From: Saprospiraceae bacterium
GTDB taxonomy: Bacteria > Bacteroidota > Bacteroidia > Chitinophagales > Saprospiraceae
DNA length: 34,806 nucleotides
Direction of reading: 5' to 3'
Assembly (NCBI GenBank): GCA_015490715.1
Contig: WFXH01000036.1
Coordinates: forward strand, 1 to 34,806
Shown here: one piece after another, positions 1,052-34,806 of the stretch
Layout of the letters: each line of letters begins with the position of its first letter
How positions within the stretch are numbered: position 1 is the first letter of the stretch
The notes under the pieces: model-generated
What the model saw: the letters and a program-made list of their open reading frames with translations, nothing else
What the model was told of the DNA's origin: nothing
Databases searched by the model: none
Position numbers and translations under genes: made by a program

Positions 1052-2116
1052 ATGAAATCGTGCATCCCCACTGTGCGTCTTTGGCTCTTTGTCGGCGTGG
1101 TGATGGTCTTTGTACAGATCATCCTGGGCGGCATCACGCGATTGACGGGATCGGGTCTTTCGATCACGCGCTGGGAAATCGTCACAGGCACGATTCCACC
1201 TCTCAATGCAAAGCAGTGGCAAGAGGCCTTTGACCTGTACAAGCAGACGCCGCAGTACCACAAGATCAATTACGACATGGACCTTGAGGAGTTTAAGACC
1301 ATTTACTGGTGGGAATACGTACATCGCTTGTGGGCGCGCCTGATGGGATTTGTATTTTTGATACCTTTTCTCTACTTCTACTTCAAGGGGATGCTGTATA
1401 AGGGGCTTCTGCGTCGATTGGGCGTAGTGGTATTGCTGGCTGTACTGGCGGCCAGTATGGGGTGGATTATGGTCGCCAGTGGGCTTGTCGACCGCCCGTG
1501 GGTTAATGCGTACAAGCTCAGCTTGCACCTCGGCATTGGCATCGCCGTATTTGGGTATCTCCTGCGCACCGCGTGGTTTGAGACGCCTATGCCAGAGGTT
1601 GTTGTGCCCGATTCGCTTGTGCGTAGCTTAAAGATCTTTCTCGTTTTCCTCTTTTTGCAGATCCTCGTCGGTGGGGCCGTATCGGGCATGAAAGCCGCCA
1701 TTTACTATCCCACCTGGCCGCAAATGAACGGCGAGTGGATCCCTTCGGTGCTTCTCCAATTAGAGCACTGGACATGGGACAATCTCAAGGCCTACGACAC
1801 GCATCGCTTTGCGCCTGCACTCATCCAGTTTACACATCGCAGCATTGCCTACATTCTGTGGATAGCCGCCGTGTATTTCCTCATAAAATACCACAAGCGC
1901 GTCCCCCTGGAAGTACACCTCTTTCTACTCTTTCTCCTCATGGTCCTGACCATACAGCTGATATTGGGCATCTATACGGTGCTCAACAGCAGGGGATACA
2001 TACCCGTCACCTTAGGTGTGTTTCATCAAATGGGCGCTGTGGTGACGCTGGCGGTGTCTTATTCCCTCTATCATTGGGTGCGCTATCGAGGGGCTTGTGG
2101 TTTGGACAAGCTCTGA
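1052..2116 (+). CDS. ctaA: Heme A synthase, COX15/CtaA family
   Basis: This is a 354-residue integral inner-membrane protein with about eight hydrophobic helices. COX15/CtaA oxidises the C8 methyl of heme O to a formyl group, making heme A for aa3-type cytochrome oxidases. Family signs are the N-terminal QIILGGITRLTGSGLS stretch (residues 22-37), the EYVHRLWAR motif (E89, H91) and later helix histidines H159, H262 (THRSIAY) and H325 (FHQMGA). These give the two pairs of heme ligands expected of the duplicated four-helix fold. The long loop after helix 1 (WEIVTGTIPPLN) is typical of the COX15 type found in mitochondria and proteobacteria rather than the short Bacillus CtaA. The ATG at 1052 follows a good -7 box. 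No heme O synthase or oxidase subunit is adjacent, so it stands alone. Confidence 0.93.
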   Translation: MKSCIPTVRLWLFVGVVMVFVQIILGGITRLTGSGLSITRWEIVTGTIPPLNAKQWQEAFDLYKQTPQYHKINYDMDLEEFKTIYWWEYVHRLWARLMGFVFLIPFLYFYFKGMLYKGLLRRLGVVVLLAVLAASMGWIMVASGLVDRPWVNAYKLSLHLGIGIAVFGYLLRTAWFETPMPEVVVPDSLVRSLKIFLVFLFLQILVGGAVSGMKAAIYYPTWPQMNGEWIPSVLLQLEHWTWDNLKAYDTHRFAPALIQFTHRSIAYILWIAAVYFLIKYHKRVPLEVHLFLLFLLMVLTIQLILGIYTVLNSRGYIPVTLGVFHQMGAVVTLAVSYSLYHWVRYRGACGLDKL

Positions 2117-2323: not shown

Positions 2324-2875
2324 ATGAGGCGTAAAAGCGACATATCCTCAATCCTTGAGGGATGTATGCGCGGCGATGAAAAATGTCAGAGGCAGCTCTA
2401 TGAGCTGTATTGCGAAGAGGCCTTTGGCATCTGTCGTCGGTACGCGCGCAACGATCAAGAGGCCGAGGATATGTTGCAAAGCGCCTTCGTCAACATCTAT
2501 CGATTTCTGCACAAGTTTGAGGGACGTGGGTCGTTTTCGTCGTGGATTCGGAAAGTCATCGTACACAATTGCATAGTCTACCTAAAGCAACACCGCCATA
2601 TGTACAGAACTATTGAGATTAGCGATCAGCACTACGCCACCGAAGCGGCCGATTCGGCTTTTTCGAATTTAGAAAAAGAGGATCTGCTTAAAATGGTACA
2701 ACAGCTACCCGACGGATATCGCGAGGTGTTCAATCTCTTTGCCATCGAAGGCTATAGTCACCGCGAAATTGCAGACAAGCTCGGCATCGCAGAAAGTACC
2801 TCGCGCTCTCAATTGACTAAGGCGCGCCGCCTATTGCGCAACCTCGTCATCAAAAGCAAAAACCTCGTGCTATGA
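2324..2875 (+). CDS. ECF-type RNA polymerase sigma factor
   Basis: The product is 183 residues, normal for an extracytoplasmic-function sigma-70 factor. Region 2 spans about residues 22-90: YARNDQEAEDMLQSAFVNIYRFLHKFEGRGSFSSWIRKV is a clear region 2.1-2.4 with the usual DxED-like acidic patch and aromatic melting residues. Region 4 spans about 130-178: LPDGYREVFNLFAIEGYSHREIADKLGIAESTSRSQLTKARRLL, with a helix-turn-helix. It would direct RNA polymerase to a small regulon in response to an envelope signal. The stop overlaps the next gene's start (ATGA at 2872-2875), so the two are translationally coupled. That next protein has an anti-sigma-like N-terminus and is the likely regulator. Confidence 0.93.
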   Translation: MRRKSDISSILEGCMRGDEKCQRQLYELYCEEAFGICRRYARNDQEAEDMLQSAFVNIYRFLHKFEGRGSFSSWIRKVIVHNCIVYLKQHRHMYRTIEISDQHYATEAADSAFSNLEKEDLLKMVQQLPDGYREVFNLFAIEGYSHREIADKLGIAESTSRSQLTKARRLLRNLVIKSKNLVL

Positions 2876-4284
2876 GTTACGACAAGCGTCAGTGGTTGGA
2901 CGATTATTTTCGTGCTCAACTCAAAGAGTACCGCTCCACACCGCCCTCCAAAGTTTGGGACAACATTCAGTCCCAGCTGCGACGGGACAAAAAATTCGGC
3001 TATACCCTGGGAGGACGCCTCTTAGCTGGACTGTTGGCCGCGATTTTGATCGGACTTTGGTGGTTTGATACTTCAGAGGGTGAACTCTCTACGGCTACTC
3101 AGTCAGTAGATCTATCACAGGAGAACACCACCACAATCGACGATCGCCATTCCCTCAACTCAACAGTAGTCCGTACGGAGGGCAACCCACAACCACTGCC
3201 CGCGCAGATAGCAGAACCCCCACAGGCCCCAACCAAAGAGCATCAACCCAACAGTGTCAACAAGGAAACAAAGCTGAAAGTCTACTCCCAATCTCCGCTT
3301 TTCCCATCCTCAAAGAGAGCTTCGCAGTTTGCCAGCTCTACTACACACACCGACGAGACACCTACGTACTCGTCCACGCATACACCTCTAATCGATGCCT
3401 CTTCACCGCACGCCACTGTTGTCGGATCAACAGCAAAGGCGATGACTTCGGGGTACTCATCGTCTGAAAGGAGCATATCGGACATAATCCATCTATTGCC
3501 ACCTTACCGCTATCGGCCAGTGCAAAGCATTACTGCTCCTGTGCAAGCACCGCTACCGATCGGTGGCTCCGATTGTATGAAGCTCGTCTATCGACCGTAT
3601 CAACACAGAAGTATTGAAATCGGTGTTGGTCCTTTTATATCGGATCGACTGCTCTACACTTTGGACTCCTCATGGCAAGGCCTCATCTTCAAGCGCAACG
3701 AGGCAGAATCGCAACGTCGGTCTTGGAATGCGAGCATCCTCTATCGCTGGTCCGTAGCAAGAGATGTGTACATCAAGAGTGGAATACAATTTCACATGCT
3801 TCGCGAACAATTCCGCTACCAAAACGGCATAGACGTCAAGTACATTATCAACAGCAATGGCGACACGATCAAGCGAATCGAAAAGCCCCACTACGATATC
3901 TTCACCAATCGCTATACCTTCTGGGACATACCCCTCTACATCTCCTACACCTGGGGCATCCATCGCATATTTGTTGATCTCAACTCGGGCATAACTTTCA
4001 ACTTTTACAGCCAGCAGAGGGGATATCTCTACGATTATGAAGGCAAGGCCAGACCCATGCATGCCCTTTTGGAAGGCGGGAAGGCCCCCTTTCGGCGTTT
4101 TGCCGGGTTGAGCCTGTCCCTCTCGCTCAATTTAGGCTATCAATTCCATTCCCAATTTGGCGCATTCGTAGAGCCGGGCGTACAGTATTTCCTCCGCCCA
4201 CTCTCGACAGAAGCCTATCCCATCAAACAGAAATACGTATTTTACCGTTTCAACTTAGGAGTGCGGTATACGCTCTTCGAATGA
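2872..4284 (+). CDS. Membrane-anchored beta-barrel protein with anti-sigma-like N-terminus
   Basis: The product is 470 residues. Residues 1-42 are cytoplasmic in character and contain PPSKVWDNIQSQL (24-36), a short motif common in Bacteroidota proteins encoded right after ECF sigma factors and thought to act like an anti-sigma segment. One membrane helix follows at about 44-65 (LGGRLLAGLLAAILIGLWWF). Residues ~68-215 are a low-complexity Ser/Thr/Pro/Gln linker. Residues ~235-470 are made of amphipathic beta strands with aromatic girdles, ending in YRFNLGVRYTLFE with a terminal aromatic, as in outer-membrane beta-barrels of the PorT/OmpW-like kind. One chain could therefore reach from cytoplasm to outer membrane. 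It is coupled to the sigma gene by ATGA overlap and ends 6 bases before the chelatase-like gene. The anti-sigma role is inference from position and motif. Confidence 0.8.
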   Translation: MSYDKRQWLDDYFRAQLKEYRSTPPSKVWDNIQSQLRRDKKFGYTLGGRLLAGLLAAILIGLWWFDTSEGELSTATQSVDLSQENTTTIDDRHSLNSTVVRTEGNPQPLPAQIAEPPQAPTKEHQPNSVNKETKLKVYSQSPLFPSSKRASQFASSTTHTDETPTYSSTHTPLIDASSPHATVVGSTAKAMTSGYSSSERSISDIIHLLPPYRYRPVQSITAPVQAPLPIGGSDCMKLVYRPYQHRSIEIGVGPFISDRLLYTLDSSWQGLIFKRNEAESQRRSWNASILYRWSVARDVYIKSGIQFHMLREQFRYQNGIDVKYIINSNGDTIKRIEKPHYDIFTNRYTFWDIPLYISYTWGIHRIFVDLNSGITFNFYSQQRGYLYDYEGKARPMHALLEGGKAPFRRFAGLSLSLSLNLGYQFHSQFGAFVEPGVQYFLRPLSTEAYPIKQKYVFYRFNLGVRYTLFE

Positions 4285-4290
4285 GTAGAC

Positions 4291-6207
4291 ATGCGTATTT
4301 CTTCGTTTGGGCAAAACGATCTCTACATAGGTCTCCACATCCTGGCAATTGAGCCGGCACTCAAAGGCTTGCTCATCGGCGGCGAATACGGTACGGGTAA
4401 GAGCAGTATTGTCCGGGCCCTGCGCCCGCTTTGGGGGGATAGGCCCTTTGTGGAAGTGCCTATCTCGTGTACGTCCGACCGACTCCTCGGCAGTATGGAT
4501 TGGGGTAAAACTTTGCAGGAGGGAAGGGCGCATTTTATGAAAGGATTGATCGCCCAGGCACACGGAGGCGTGCTCTTTTTAGACAATATTCACCTCTTCC
4601 CGCGCGAAATTCTCTTTCCCATCCTCTATACGCTTGAGACGGGACGTATTCCCGGCTCAGGCAGCCCAAGCGACAATGGAGCATCTATACAAATTTCGCT
4701 CATCGGCACTTACAATCCCTCCGAAGGGGTTTTGCCCGACTACTTAGCCCAAAAGATGGGCATGCACGTCTTTACGCGCACCATCACGCATTTGCCCATA
4801 CGGATGTACATGACCAAGCGGCGATACGATCTTCCGCCTCCCTCCCACGACGACATCCTCCGCATCGAACGCGCTCGTCGACTTCTCCCTGCGATACGTA
4901 CGTATCCGCAACATATACAGCTCATTGCTGAGCTCGCTCAGCGCATGGGCATCCAGAACAATGCTTCGGAGATATTAGTCTTGCGCGGAGCAAAGGCACA
5001 TGCAGCGCTCCATCTGCGCGAAGAGGTCAATGAGCAAGACATCTATTTAGCGGCACGGCTCATCTTTTCCGACAAAATCGCTGCTGTAGAAAAGCTCGGC
5101 TCTGAGCGCCCCTCCGATGGGCGCTCCCAACAGCAAGACGCCACCGTCGACGAGCGCGCTGAGAAACGCACCAATGCCGCTACGACCCCTTCTACAAAGT
5201 CCGGCCCCCAACCACCCGATGACGGCAGCGGACCCAATACCGGTGGTATCCACACCATTGCCCAACCGGATCGTCCACAACAGCATTCGTCATCGAAGAG
5301 TACCATCAAAGAGCTCTCAAGAGAAATCAATTACGAAGAGGGGGCTCCAATCGACCTTCCACCGATAGAGGGCAAACACCGAGGGGGCAGAAACGTCTTA
5401 TGCGGCTCCCACGTCCATACCCTTAACTATCGCCGAGGGCGCCACGTTCGCTCGGTACCCGGCCAGCCCAAACAGGGCAAGGTCGACATCATCGCCACCA
5501 TTCAGGCAGCTATTGCCGGCGGCGGACTATCGCCTTCGGCCGACAAGCCACTCCGTATTCGCCCCGAGCACTTTCGCATAAAACAATTTCGCCAAAAGAG
5601 CGGTTTACTCTTCATCATCGCCGTAGACGGCTCCGGCTCTATGGCCATCAACCGTCTCCATGCAGCCAGGAAATGCGTGGCGCATCTGCTGCAAAAATCG
5701 TACGTCTACCGCGACAAGGTAAGCCTGTTGTACTTTCGCCAGAGCGAGGCCCGATGGATACTCTATCCCGGCCAGAGCCTTACGCGTGCCCAACACACCC
5801 TGCAGAAATTCCCCGTCGGGGGGCGTACCCCCTTGAGCGATGCCCTGCTGAAAATCCACGCCATGGCCCAAAAGGCCCGCCAACATTGGCATGTAGCCGG
5901 CACCGTGTTGATACTCTTTACCGATGGCAAGGCCAATCAACCCCTGGCAGCCGTATCCCACAACGGCCGCAACGAAGTCATCGCCCGCCAGGAAATTCGA
6001 CGCCTCGCTCAAAATCTACAACCTCATCTGTTGAAAGCCGTTGTATTTGATACACGTTGTTATTATCAACGGGATAGCGAAGCGCGCGATGTGGCAAGGT
6101 GGCTGAGTGCCGATTATCATTACATGCCTAAACGCCAAAAAGACAGCGCTATACTACAAATTGTCGATAACTCAGTGGAGCAAATACGAAAGGGCCACAC
6201 ACCATGA
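4291..6207 (+). CDS. Magnesium chelatase subunit D-like AAA/VWA protein
   Basis: The product is 638 residues with the ChlD/BchD layout: AAA+ module, linker, VWA domain. Walker A is GEYGTGKS (31-38). The Walker B region is VLFLDN (94-99), with Asn instead of Glu after the Asp. Sensor 1 is IGTYNPSEG (138-146), close to the chelatase GNPEEG. The usual DRFG arginine finger reads QKMG (154-157). A Pro/Ser/Gln-rich linker runs from about 270 to 345, followed by the ChlD-like RRGRHVRSVPG and RIRPEH segments. The VWA metal site is intact: D446-G-S-G-S450, T513, D545. In chlorophyll synthesis, ChlI and ChlD drive Mg insertion by ChlH. No H subunit or other pigment gene is present, so the substrate is unknown. 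Cobalamin-type or other metal-insertion ATPases are alternatives. The stop overlaps the radical SAM start (ATGA). Confidence 0.85.
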   Translation: MRISSFGQNDLYIGLHILAIEPALKGLLIGGEYGTGKSSIVRALRPLWGDRPFVEVPISCTSDRLLGSMDWGKTLQEGRAHFMKGLIAQAHGGVLFLDNIHLFPREILFPILYTLETGRIPGSGSPSDNGASIQISLIGTYNPSEGVLPDYLAQKMGMHVFTRTITHLPIRMYMTKRRYDLPPPSHDDILRIERARRLLPAIRTYPQHIQLIAELAQRMGIQNNASEILVLRGAKAHAALHLREEVNEQDIYLAARLIFSDKIAAVEKLGSERPSDGRSQQQDATVDERAEKRTNAATTPSTKSGPQPPDDGSGPNTGGIHTIAQPDRPQQHSSSKSTIKELSREINYEEGAPIDLPPIEGKHRGGRNVLCGSHVHTLNYRRGRHVRSVPGQPKQGKVDIIATIQAAIAGGGLSPSADKPLRIRPEHFRIKQFRQKSGLLFIIAVDGSGSMAINRLHAARKCVAHLLQKSYVYRDKVSLLYFRQSEARWILYPGQSLTRAQHTLQKFPVGGRTPLSDALLKIHAMAQKARQHWHVAGTVLILFTDGKANQPLAAVSHNGRNEVIARQEIRRLAQNLQPHLLKAVVFDTRCYYQRDSEARDVARWLSADYHYMPKRQKDSAILQIVDNSVEQIRKGHTP

Positions 6208-7295
6208 CGCAGAGCTTGCGCACATACCTCCAGGATCCACTCCTCCACACGCTCTATCAGCGCGTGCGTGCAGCGGGTCCGATACGGAGCATTTCCCTCG
6301 ACATCACCCACAAGTGCAACCTGCGCTGTATCGGATGCTATTACTTCAACGAAGACATGGACCGCCACTATACCGAGGATGATGCCGATCTCGATGCCTT
6401 CATCGAGCGCGAACTCCAGCGCGGTACCAATTTTATCACCATCGTCGGAGGCGAACCTTCCATCGCCCTACGGCGCCTGCGCAAGCTCTACCGCCATTTT
6501 AAGCTCAGCGTAGCCACCAACGGGGTCAAACGCATTCCCAAAGAGGGACTCGAAGAGCTCCCCATCGGTATAGCCCTTTGGGGCGACCCCGAAACGGATA
6601 AGTTCCTCCGCGGAGGAGGCAAGATCGACATCTTCTCCAAAGCCCTGCGCCACTACAAAGACGACGAGCGTGCATTTTGGTACTTCACCGTTGCTCCTGG
6701 CCAGGCCCATGTCATCCCTGAGGTCGTGCCGCGTCTGCTGGACAACGGCAACATGGTGCTCTTCAACTACTACTCCGATCTCGCTGGGCTGGGCGGCCCC
6801 TACGACTATCGACAGGGTTTCGACGCAGTGCGCGACCAAATCGACCGCATGATTGAGCGCTACCCCGGTCGCATCCTCATGACGCCTTATTTCAACAAGG
6901 TCATCGCCACGGGCAAACTCTTCGACATGACCTGGGGATACGAAGTCTGTACCAATGTGTCGACCAATCTCGAGATGAATGCCGAGCGAATGCAAAACGG
7001 CTACCCCTACAACCGCCACTTCCGCGCTTACAATGCCGACTTTAAAACGACGCGCCGATGTTGTACGGGACACCAGCGCGATTGCGCTTCCTGCTTTGAC
7101 ACCTGGGAACACTTTTCGTGGATCATGGTCCACGCCAAAAAGCATCTGCGCAGCTTTGCGCATTTCACCGGCTGGCTCACCACCGTCTATCTCTTTTACT
7201 TCATCAATCGGCTGGTCGACTTTCAAGAGGGCAAGCAGCTCCTCTATCGCATCCACAAGCATCCCGCCTTCGCCAGTCTGGTAGCACCCGAATAA
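6204..7295 (+). CDS. Radical SAM enzyme with extra C-terminal cysteines
   Basis: The product is 363 residues. ISLDITHKCNLRCIGCYYF carries the CX3CX2C cluster motif at C38, C42 and C45. GGEPS follows at the usual SAM-binding position (the GGEP motif), and FKLSVATNG is a beta-strand/loop typical of the radical SAM barrel. The enzyme should reduce SAM to the 5'-deoxyadenosyl radical. More cysteines occur at C249, C286, C287, C294 and C297; the CC-x6-C-x2-C pattern in RRCCTGHQRDCASC suggests an auxiliary iron-sulfur cluster of SPASM/twitch type, though I cannot assign it to a named subfamily. A hydrophobic stretch near residues 325-340 (WLTTVYLFYFINRLV) may touch the membrane. It is translationally coupled to the chelatase-D-like gene (ATGA at 6204-6207), so the two probably act on the same pathway. 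The substrate is unknown. Confidence 0.87.
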   Translation: MTQSLRTYLQDPLLHTLYQRVRAAGPIRSISLDITHKCNLRCIGCYYFNEDMDRHYTEDDADLDAFIERELQRGTNFITIVGGEPSIALRRLRKLYRHFKLSVATNGVKRIPKEGLEELPIGIALWGDPETDKFLRGGGKIDIFSKALRHYKDDERAFWYFTVAPGQAHVIPEVVPRLLDNGNMVLFNYYSDLAGLGGPYDYRQGFDAVRDQIDRMIERYPGRILMTPYFNKVIATGKLFDMTWGYEVCTNVSTNLEMNAERMQNGYPYNRHFRAYNADFKTTRRCCTGHQRDCASCFDTWEHFSWIMVHAKKHLRSFAHFTGWLTTVYLFYFINRLVDFQEGKQLLYRIHKHPAFASLVAPE

Positions 7296-25390: not shown

Positions 25391-25416
25391 TTAATTTTAC
25401 CCTTTGGTAAAATTAA
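25391..25416. promoter_or_regulatory. Perfect 11-bp inverted repeat in the coaX/DUF4056 divergent region
   Basis: TTAATTTTACC (25391-25401) is exactly complementary to GGTAAAATTAA (25406-25416), with the loop CTTT. It sits between divergent genes, 27 bases before the DUF4056 start and 77 before coaX. Its left half includes TTACCCTTTG, the same string found before the nucleoside transporter. An operator for both promoters is plausible; a transcript hairpin is also possible. Confidence 0.6.
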
Positions 25417-25442
25417 CGCACCAAAATTCGGCCGATACGCAA

Positions 25443-26513
25443 GTGATACGGCAGAAATATCGCCCCGTGTTTGTCGTCGTCATCGTCTTGCTGTGCGCAG
25501 CTGCAGCAGGATGGGCATGGCGACATTGGGACGCCGGTGCGCTCAAAGCACCAGGAAGCAAAGTCATCCGCACTTGCTGCCAATTTGGCTACGACGTGCC
25601 CTACTTCATCTGGCCCTTCGGAAGCGCCGAAAAACTCACCAGCTTCGACCAACTCGGCCCACACGTCTACCTCGGCGATAACTCTGAAAACAACGGCATC
25701 CTCTACACCCACCGAGGAGGATTTATCGATATGGGGCACTTGCGCGACTACGCCGATTGGACCTACTACCTCCACCACCAAATCCGCAAAGCCATCGACG
25801 ACCACCGCGATACCCTCGTACTCTACCTCGGCACCGAAGGCGGCGAAAAATACCTCTTTGTCTTCCTCGACAGCTTCCCCGTCACCGACGAAAACACCAT
25901 CCGCCTCGCCGGCTACATGGCCTTCCAATTGGGCATCTGGCACGAAATAGCCACCTGGTACGGCGTGTCCTTCATCCCCTTTATCCCCGAACAGTACTCC
26001 AGCTTTAGCCCCGAAGACCTCTACTCCAACGGACTGGGCGTTGAGCTCGGCACAAAAGCACTGCACACCCCCGGCGACTACACCAAAAACATGACCCAAC
26101 TCATCCACACCACCCTGCTCGACCTATATCCCGTTTCGACTATCGACGATACCAAGCGAGCCATGGACAAGGTCGAAGGCCTTTGGTGGAACAAAGACGT
26201 CTACCTACCCAGCGGAGCACTCCTCATACGCCGCTATTACGATATCCACCCCCCGCTCTACCCCTGGCGCCTGCCCGAAGACGAAGACCAATACCCACCC
26301 CATGCTGTCTACTTCGACACCACCACCACCGACGGCACCCCACTCGACCACTTCTTCCGATTTGAAATACGCACCAACGAAAAAATACCCGTCACCAGAA
26401 TCTTCGGCTACCCCAAGACCGTCCTCACCCATCGCGATTTCGATACCATCATCGCACAAATCCAAAGAGAAGAACAAAGCGGTGCCCACCTACAAAAACA
26501 CCAACCGCAATAA
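25443..26513 (+). CDS. DUF4056 domain protein
   Basis: The product is 356 residues from GTG 25443; a TTG at 25404 would place the start inside the hairpin and is unlikely. A membrane/signal segment (VFVVVIVLLCAAAAGWAW) opens the protein. Then come DUF4056 signs: VIRTCCQFGYDVPYF, GPHVYLGDNSENNGILYTHRGGFIDMGHLRDYADWTYYL and QLGIWHEIATWYG. The recurring His and Glu (HEIATWYG; GHLRDYADW) hint at a metal or catalytic site, but the family has no known function. The C-terminus is rich in Asp, Tyr and Pro. It is exported or anchored at the inner membrane. It is convergent with THX. Confidence 0.9.
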   Translation: MIRQKYRPVFVVVIVLLCAAAAGWAWRHWDAGALKAPGSKVIRTCCQFGYDVPYFIWPFGSAEKLTSFDQLGPHVYLGDNSENNGILYTHRGGFIDMGHLRDYADWTYYLHHQIRKAIDDHRDTLVLYLGTEGGEKYLFVFLDSFPVTDENTIRLAGYMAFQLGIWHEIATWYGVSFIPFIPEQYSSFSPEDLYSNGLGVELGTKALHTPGDYTKNMTQLIHTTLLDLYPVSTIDDTKRAMDKVEGLWWNKDVYLPSGALLIRRYYDIHPPLYPWRLPEDEDQYPPHAVYFDTTTTDGTPLDHFFRFEIRTNEKIPVTRIFGYPKTVLTHRDFDTIIAQIQREEQSGAHLQKHQPQ

Positions 26514-34122: not shown

Positions 34123-34806
34123 CTATTCTTCACTGCCATCGAAATCCATTTCTCTCTGCATACCATGTGTTTTATCAAAGTAAAACGATGCTCTACTACC
34201 CAAAAAGCCTTCCAATAGTTTGCGCTCCTTACTCTCCATGGGGAGTGTCTCGGCGATGGCCTGGGCCACTCGAAAAAAGGCATCGTTGGTATGGTATCCC
34301 GTTTGATATAGTGTTTGAGGTATTAAATGTCGTCGCCCATCCGACCAAAGCTTGACCACCTTGTGGAGTACATCAATCAATTCTTTCGCATCCTCGAGAT
34401 CATCGTGTTTTCGCTCCTGTGGGCCGAGCAGGCGGATAAGGTTTTTGTCCTTTTGGATAAATCCGCGGTTCCACTCCCGTTCCAGATCGACTCCGGCGGT
34501 TTGTGCGAGCTTGCGCGCATCGTCAAACTGTAAGGCTCTCTCCTTATAGGCCCATCGCCAGAGCAGGTAGAACTTCGTCAATGGAGAGAGTTCGCCTGCG
34601 AGGCCGTTGTGGAGGATTTGACGCACGGCGTGATCCGTCACTACCTGCCGTACGTAGTCCAAAAGCGCGGAGATGGGCACTTCATTGCCTTCGTTGTCCA
34701 ACACCCTGCGGTACTTGCCGAAGATTTCGATGGCAGCGCCAAAGGCGGAGATGAGATAGTCTGCTCCGCTCAATCCCTCCTTCCACAACATCTCCAACCT
34801 CCGAGG
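34123..34806 (-). CDS. C-terminal part of a DUF1156 adenine-specific DNA methylase (5' truncated by window)
   Basis: The frame is open to the window edge at 34806; the TTG at 34797 is internal. The last ~227 residues are visible. They match the DUF1156 C-terminal region: LSGADYLISAFGAAIEIFGKYRRVLDNEGN, LLDYVRQVVTDHAVRQILHNG, SPLTKFYLLWRWAYKERALQFDDARKLAQTAGVDLEREW, LLGPQERK, and FFRVAQAIAETLPMESKERKLLEGFL. The methylase catalytic motifs (FxGxG and DPPY) would lie upstream, outside the window. The protein modifies DNA in a DUF499-DUF1156 anti-phage system, here encoded directly before the DUF499 gene. Whether the other usual parts (DUF3780, HerA-type helicase, nuclease) are present cannot be seen. 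Confidence 0.9.
   Translation of the reverse strand, partial: PRRLEMLWKEGLSGADYLISAFGAAIEIFGKYRRVLDNEGNEVPISALLDYVRQVVTDHAVRQILHNGLAGELSPLTKFYLLWRWAYKERALQFDDARKLAQTAGVDLEREWNRGFIQKDKNLIRLLGPQERKHDDLEDAKELIDVLHKVVKLWSDGRRHLIPQTLYQTGYHTNDAFFRVAQAIAETLPMESKERKLLEGFLGSRASFYFDKTHGMQREMDFDGSEE

Follow-up and report, generated by a model that had tools for sequence, protein, structure and literature searches.

The sHdr pathway is a cytoplasmic route of sulfur oxidation in bacteria and archaea; to our knowledge, the assembly of the sHdr complex is not settled. Type II clusters are defined by synteny of shdrC1-B1-A-H-B3 and etfAB (PMC11582611), and group III clusters with EtfBA have also been described (PMC6067878). 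The accessible text of both papers mentions two lipoyl synthase radical SAM proteins only, and no chelatase (PMC11582611, PMC6067878). The stretch analyzed here, termed the window, comprises positions 1 to 34,806 of contig WFXH01000036.1 from a Saprospiraceae bacterium. It contains four closely spaced genes encoding an extracytoplasmic function (ECF) sigma factor, a membrane-spanning barrel protein, a ChlD-like AAA+/VWA protein and a radical SAM enzyme (rSAM). We lean, with somewhat more confidence than doubt, towards reading the ChlD-like protein and rSAM as accessory factors of type II sHdr/LbpA/EtfAB/EMO sulfur oxidation, joined end to end with a separate sigma/barrel module. Their accessory role is probably in maturation. 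Like the type II sHdr-LbpA clusters, the loci of rSAM, ChlI and ChlD contain hdrC1-B1-A-H, a fused C2B2 gene (B3), lbpA, a lipoate ligase, LipS1/LipS2 and etfBA; what they add is a third radical SAM enzyme, joined in some Bacteroidota by ChlI and ChlD.

In a genome of the same family (G093), the gene order is HdrC1-B1-A-H-B3-LbpA2-LipS1-sLpl-LipS2-EtfB-EtfA-EMO-ChlI-ChlD-rSAM, with one small open reading frame (ORF) between sLpl and LipS2. The gene taken here to be EMO combines Fer4 and CCG domains. A second genome (G206) follows this order up to ChlI, after which come one gene and then ChlD, with rSAM on another contig. Two others (G190 and G210) have rSAM directly after EMO, and G228, whose genome is a single contig, has it inside the sHdr locus, between a lipoate-ligase-like gene and SoeB. 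In all five, shdrC1-B1-A-H-B3 and etfAB form one syntenic cluster on a single contig (L105 in G093, L104 in G206, L103 in G190, L110 in G210 and L124 in G228). The genome of the window carries the same set of genes on two contigs: C9 holds ArsR-DsrE3-Lpl-DsrE3b-LbpA1-HdrC1-B1-A-H-B3-LbpA2-LipS1-sLpl-LipS2, and C55 the end of LipS2 followed by EtfB-EtfA-EMO. Because their ends, within LipS2, have 151 identical bases in common, the two contigs are very probably neighbors and hold one type II sHdr cluster. The two lipoate-type radical SAM genes of this genome have LipS1 and LipS2 as their best NCBIfam matches, below cut-off.

Beyond these examples, 28 rSAM loci were confirmed among 192 pattern-matched stretches of the genome collection, in a scan that picks up close relatives only. 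By record title, 19 belong to Bacteroidota, 2 to KSB1, 2 to Acidobacteria and 5 to Gammaproteobacteria metagenome-assembled genomes (MAGs); with L124 added, they make up the 29 rSAM loci referred to throughout. Genes of sHdr, lipoate-assembly, EtfAB/EMO or SoeAB-like type occur in the fetched stretch of 17 of the 29. L024 enters the 17 solely through SoeA/SoeB markers drawn from that very locus, and without it the figure is 16/28; the Soe name of these genes is our assumption, and their Fe-S/NrfD subunit is the one scanned. Among the remaining loci, one has sigma/Dma and ChlD genes (L020, from a near species) and one has ChlD only (L026).

The distribution of rSAM across genomes agrees with its position. 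Among 198 genomes of the order, full-length rSAM occurs in three, and sHdrB1 occurs in exactly those three. At E<=0.001, 19 of the 198 genomes gave a match; 16 were dropped because other radical SAM proteins had been hit over part of their length (E 7e-7 or weaker). Stricter limits (1e-30, 1e-40, 1e-60) were set from the outset in later samples. ChlD, at E<=1e-40, is found in two of the 198, both with rSAM and sHdr. A phylum sample of 395 genomes contains rSAM in two and sHdrB1 in three, and both rSAM genomes are among the three. Across the rSAM genomes, sHdrB1 is present in 26 of 29, gammaproteobacteria included. A class-wide sample around one gammaproteobacterial genome (G212) is uninformative: rSAM was found in 1/219, the central genome itself, and sHdrB1 was not searched there. 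As would be expected of an sHdr accessory, rSAM thus both co-occurs and co-locates with sHdr, with exceptions (3/29 genomes without sHdrB1 and 10/29 loci without markers).

These exceptions, together with several other observations, weigh against the proposed accessory role. The Fisher tests (rSAM with sHdrB1: 7.8e-7 in the order and 3.9e-5 in the phylum; ChlD with rSAM in the order: 1.5e-4) are guides only, since the samples overlap, the genomes are related, positives are few and the window genome is the source of the queries, and without that genome the values become 5.2e-5, 0.005 and 0.01, respectively. No sHdrB1 was found in three of the rSAM genomes (G204, G205, G221), although in G205 and G221 sHdr-type genes stand beside rSAM despite this miss (L028, L045). 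Conversely, no rSAM match was obtained in one genome (G305) that does carry an sHdr/ETF locus. The stretch taken from it (L125) also shows no matches to LbpA2, LipS1/2, sLpl or HdrH, an observation that could tie rSAM to the LbpA2/LipS part of the system and not to sHdr in its entirety. Of the 29 rSAM genomes, 20 lack ChlD, so the motor is not required for rSAM everywhere, and among the genomes seen the two genes are immediate neighbors in just three (those of the window and L020, and G093). In the lineage of the window, ChlD-rSAM stands apart from the sHdr locus, where another gene, which we take to be DNA polymerase I-like, follows EMO. Most of the loci come from MAGs, and the co-occurrence of rSAM with sHdr could reflect sulfidic habitat.

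This last point leads to an alternative that we regard as unlikely, in which rSAM and ChlI/ChlD make a product useful in sulfidic, low-oxygen habitats, such as an acyl-derived lipid or a small molecule, without acting on sulfur-oxidation proteins. It would account for the 10 of 29 rSAM loci that show none of the above markers nearby, among them all five gammaproteobacterial ones. Two gammaproteobacterial rSAM genomes (L118, L120) keep C2 and B2 as separate genes in their sHdr clusters, and their rSAM is on another contig; the sHdr clusters of this group, as far as these two go, look like type I, and rSAM there has no sHdr markers adjoining it. Mere linkage through lifestyle fits less well with the repeated embedding of rSAM, at varying positions within the sHdr locus, in Bacteroidota, KSB1 and Acidobacteria MAGs, and with the identical sets of order genomes that hold rSAM and sHdrB1.

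The rSAM protein itself forms a coherent family. Its radical SAM domain scores 27.0 bits, under Pfam's 29.5, and the CX3CX2C motif is present. In an alignment of 30 sequences (A1; mean column identity 67%), C38, C42 and C45 are nearly invariant, two rows being fragments that lack this part, and five further cysteines (C249, C286, C287, C294 and C297) are invariant and may bind one or more auxiliary clusters. The structural model (predicted local distance difference test, pLDDT, 88) finds its best fold matches in BlsE, anSME, SkfB, SuiB and viperin (Z ~15), a class that we take to be SPASM/twitch. By predicted fold, rSAM would therefore be SPASM/twitch-like, a likeness that gives no substrate. 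Like the enzymes of this class (anSME, SuiB, SkfB, BlsE), it combines CX3CX2C with extra invariant cysteines; unlike them, it passes the cut-off of no named NCBIfam family among the 25 listed. Assignment by sequence to a known family (viperin, PapB, MoaA, NirJ and others) was rejected, as matches are weak throughout (the best, viperin_w_prok, reaches 35.2 bits vs. 180). On the rSAM tree (29 sequences; the fragment L046 was excluded), the presence of ChlD needs four changes (4-5 in bootstraps), two of which are forced by well-supported branches. ChlD thus seems to have been gained or lost more than once, making the motor an optional partner of rSAM.

More distant relatives of rSAM occur on plasmids (16 records, 28-36% identity, one of them a partial match annotated as NirJ). 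In two of the three inspected, from Alteromonas (L172:7159-9514) and Burkholderia (L173:7243-9640), the gene lies between a PaaA/PaaC-type diiron gene and a hotdog (MaoC or PaaI) gene; the third adjoins acyl carrier protein, dioxygenase and nonribosomal peptide synthetase genes. No literature on the diiron-rSAM-hotdog trio was found. These surroundings differ from those of the window family and are a lead only. They hint weakly at an acyl-bound substrate, which would fit lipoyl-LbpA; the same hint of acyl-thioester chemistry in the wider family also suits a lifestyle product of the kind considered above.

Class I chelatases are driven by a ChlI-ChlD motor (BchI-BchD, with CobS-CobT as the counterpart). 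The window protein, with an AAA lid and a VWA domain, resembles the ChlD side of this motor. Its best NCBIfam matches are BchD-ChlD (345.4 bits, cut-off 499.55) and Cob-chelat-sub (322.6, cut-off 779.45), both below cut-off, and its best sequence matches in the PDB are ChlI and two subunits of BchI/BchD structures. Alignment A3 shows that the Walker A motif GTGKS is kept; at Walker B the window protein has DN, that of G093 has DQ, and the four ChlD sequences at greater distance have DE. A ChlI is encoded on another contig of the window genome (C8, L078:7295-8344) and also falls below equivalog level (TIGR02030, 441.4 bits vs. a cut-off of 466.95). This ChlI gene starts ~20 bases after a large gene, presumably PpiC-like (stretch L078:5252-8344), an arrangement shared by the near species (L087). 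An ECF sigma gene ~6 kb upstream of it is only 23% identical to the window sigma factor. Across the rSAM genomes, ChlD occurs in 9 of 29, at full length or, in G211, in two pieces, each time with a ChlI-type gene. The AAA+ ChlI and the AAA+/VWA ChlD, with their Walker and metal ion-dependent adhesion site (MIDAS) motifs, are thus both in place. The large catalytic subunit (ChlH/BchH/CobN) is what separates the system from class I chelatases: it has no match in the whole window genome, and PF02514 is found in 0/29 rSAM genomes, with a control positive in 5/14.

The first-pass annotation had described a metal-chelatase-like ATPase next to a radical SAM enzyme, without ChlH, ChlI, pigment or cobalamin genes beside them, and had asked for a ChlH/CobN-like subunit elsewhere in the same genomes. 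Domains and motifs bear out the description of the two proteins, no ChlI, ChlH or cobalamin gene is among the nearest neighbors scanned in the window, and the count just given answers the question. A photosynthesis/chlorophyll or cobalamin context was accordingly rejected, on this count and on neighborhoods read by eye, which showed no pigment cluster. A true class I chelatase with an unrecognized catalytic subunit, in which ChlI/ChlD would power metal insertion into a tetrapyrrole and rSAM would modify the ring, appears very improbable. Recognizable motifs in both motor proteins and the tetrapyrrole gene ctaA, the nearest one to the four-gene array, upstream of the sigma gene, speak for it, although in G093 ctaA stays with the sigma/barrel pair and not with ChlD. 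The zero count for PF02514 under a working positive control speaks against it, and by eye no pigment or cobalamin cluster was recognized near ChlD and rSAM, where most of the ORFs were not scanned against the library. The position of ctaA and the tests without the window genome slightly weaken the case for sHdr accessory factors, and slightly raise that for a chelatase.

A different parallel is offered by AAA+/VWA pairs such as NorQ-NorD, in which, according to the text available to us, a VWA protein with a MIDAS serves to remodel a metalloenzyme so that metal can be inserted (PMC13036017). By analogy, the principle proposed here would be that of the MoxR-type maturation pairs (NorQ-NorD, CbbQ-CbbO; RavA-ViaA), with an AAA+ ring and a VWA/MIDAS protein acting on a metalloenzyme client. 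What sets the pair discussed here apart is that its sequences are of the ChlI/ChlD and not of the MoxR type, and that it comes with a radical SAM enzyme.

The two upstream genes have relatives of another kind. Dma anti-sigma factors, according to the portions of the description at hand, consist of an N-terminal cytosolic part, a membrane helix, a disordered tether and a C-terminal barrel, and are encoded beside ECF21 sigma factors (PMC13088901). The barrel protein of the window has no Pfam match. Its AlphaFold2 model (m5f3e409aba9d) predicts helices at residues 5-18 and 26-67 (one long helix), a low-confidence region at 64-241 and a C-terminal barrel at 246-468; confidence is high for the barrel only, with pLDDT 52-64 over residues 1-60. 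A Foldseek search with this model returns small outer-membrane barrels as top matches. As modeled, the protein would share with Dma/Das systems the N-terminal part, the membrane helix, the long disordered tether, the barrel and the neighboring ECF sigma gene, and would differ in that the pair precedes unrelated metabolic genes. Among 148 relatives (the window genome and the near species counted in), 71 have a homolog, which often matches just the barrel. The architecture also shows in an alignment of the protein with nine relatives. In nine homologous loci selected for inspection, a sigma gene adjoins the barrel gene every time; sHdr or ChlI/ChlD markers are found in none of these nine loci. 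The pair is, judging from the model, an ECF sigma factor with a putative Dma-type trans-envelope anti-sigma factor, of a type common in Bacteroidota, and the regulatory pair that the first-pass annotation had noticed is in this respect upheld.

The same annotation had gone further, proposing a single operon in which an envelope signal, acting by way of the sigma factor and the barrel protein, would switch on ChlD and rSAM to make a metal-cofactor or tetrapyrrole-like modification. Direct reading of the sequence confirms the tight junctions on which this proposal was built, with ATGA overlaps at 2872-2875 (sigma/barrel) and 6204-6207 (ChlD/rSAM) and six bases (4285-4290) between the barrel stop and the ChlD start. 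In L020, from a second species of the genus, the order ctaA-sigma-barrel-ChlD-rSAM and its tight junctions are kept, so the four genes may be one transcript today. A scan for promoters and terminators is uninformative for cotranscription (8 promoter-like sites vs. 4.1 expected, standard deviation 1.9; 8 terminator-like sites vs. 5.3, standard deviation 2.3). Comparison with G093 points the other way: the order ctaA-sigma-barrel is kept there (55, 42 and 41% identity) with genes other than ChlD-rSAM behind it, while ChlI-ChlD-rSAM closes the sHdr locus on a different contig, each half having its own context. Beyond this genome, barrel-type genes are widespread in relatives, in the nine inspected loci always apart from ChlI/ChlD, and, leaving aside the genomes of the window and L020, seven genomes have ChlD, and the stretches taken around it gave no sigma or Dma match, several of these contigs being short. 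Across the 29 rSAM loci, sigma and barrel genes accompany the ChlD/rSAM pair only in L020, largely the outcome that the annotation had said would count against it. A single four-gene system is for these reasons improbable. A role in cofactor formation or maturation is the part of the proposal that stays plausible; the union of the two gene pairs is the part that comparison does not sustain. The sigma and barrel genes look like chance neighbors of ChlD-rSAM, and may cotranscribe them today without being part of the machine.

The features of the array are collected in Table 1. Downstream of rSAM, the window scan shows two TPM-domain genes and lemA on the opposite strand. Further along, at 25404-26513 (+), the window encodes a DUF4056 protein with 48% identity to the product of the gene directly downstream of the G093 rSAM (L021:9317-10378), which may be a remnant of a gene order once shared in this region. 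A long DUF499 gene (PF04465; 31245-33863, -) lies close to the window end, and the next ORF (34123-34806) is without a Pfam match at 1e-4.

Table 1. Genes of the array and the gene preceding it, in window coordinates.
Feature	Position	Strand	Remarks
ctaA/COX15 heme A synthase	1052..2116	+	Pfam COX15-CtaA 289.3 bits; syntenic anchor of the sigma/barrel pair, outside the chelatase/rSAM module
ECF-type sigma factor, Das-like partner, 183 aa	2324..2875	+	Sigma70_r2/r4; TIGR02937 100.7 bits
Membrane-spanning barrel protein, Dma-type architecture (predicted), putative anti-sigma factor, 470 aa	2872..4284	+	AlphaFold2 model, Foldseek
ChlD-like AAA+/VWA subunit, 638 aa	4291..6207	+	AAA module ~1-264, linker, VWA with MIDAS-type DGSGS/T/D
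Radical SAM enzyme (rSAM), SPASM/twitch-like, 363 aa	6204..7295	+	CX3CX2C at C38/C42/C45

From the observed gene content, motifs, synteny and co-occurrence, and from the missing ChlH/CobN match, we infer a working mechanism for ChlD and rSAM as sHdr accessory factors, in which ring formation, client, chemistry and order of steps would be as follows. ChlI, encoded elsewhere in the genome, and ChlD would form an AAA+ ring of class I chelatase type without a chelatase subunit. Because no catalytic subunit was found, this motor should act on another client, and since ChlI-ChlD-rSAM closes the sHdr locus in G093, that client is probably a component of the sHdr machinery. The VWA/MIDAS face of the ring would dock on the client and ATP would open it; rSAM could then carry out a radical modification, or the insertion or repair of a cofactor. 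The client may be LbpA, through its lipoyl arm, or sHdrB1/B3 or EMO, through their CCG-type clusters, or else another protein.

In the search listings and the accessible text of PMC10332631, PMC6067878, PMC12423496, PMC12345210, PMC11582611 and PMC13384644, no published link was found between sHdr and ChlI/ChlD, nor between sHdr and any radical SAM protein besides LipS1/LipS2. We put forward tentatively, as a possibility with more doubt than confidence attached, that a ChlI/ChlD motor has lost its chelatase and, together with a new radical SAM family, become a dedicated maturation machine that makes or repairs an undescribed cofactor or modified residue in sHdr-LbpA, of which some sulfur oxidizers keep rSAM only. 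If this holds, a conserved third radical SAM enzyme, which tracks sHdr across MAGs from several phyla, and, in nine of the rSAM genomes, a chelatase motor that lacks its chelatase would be new parts of sHdr complex assembly, and AAA+/VWA remodeling by ChlI/ChlD would extend beyond tetrapyrroles.

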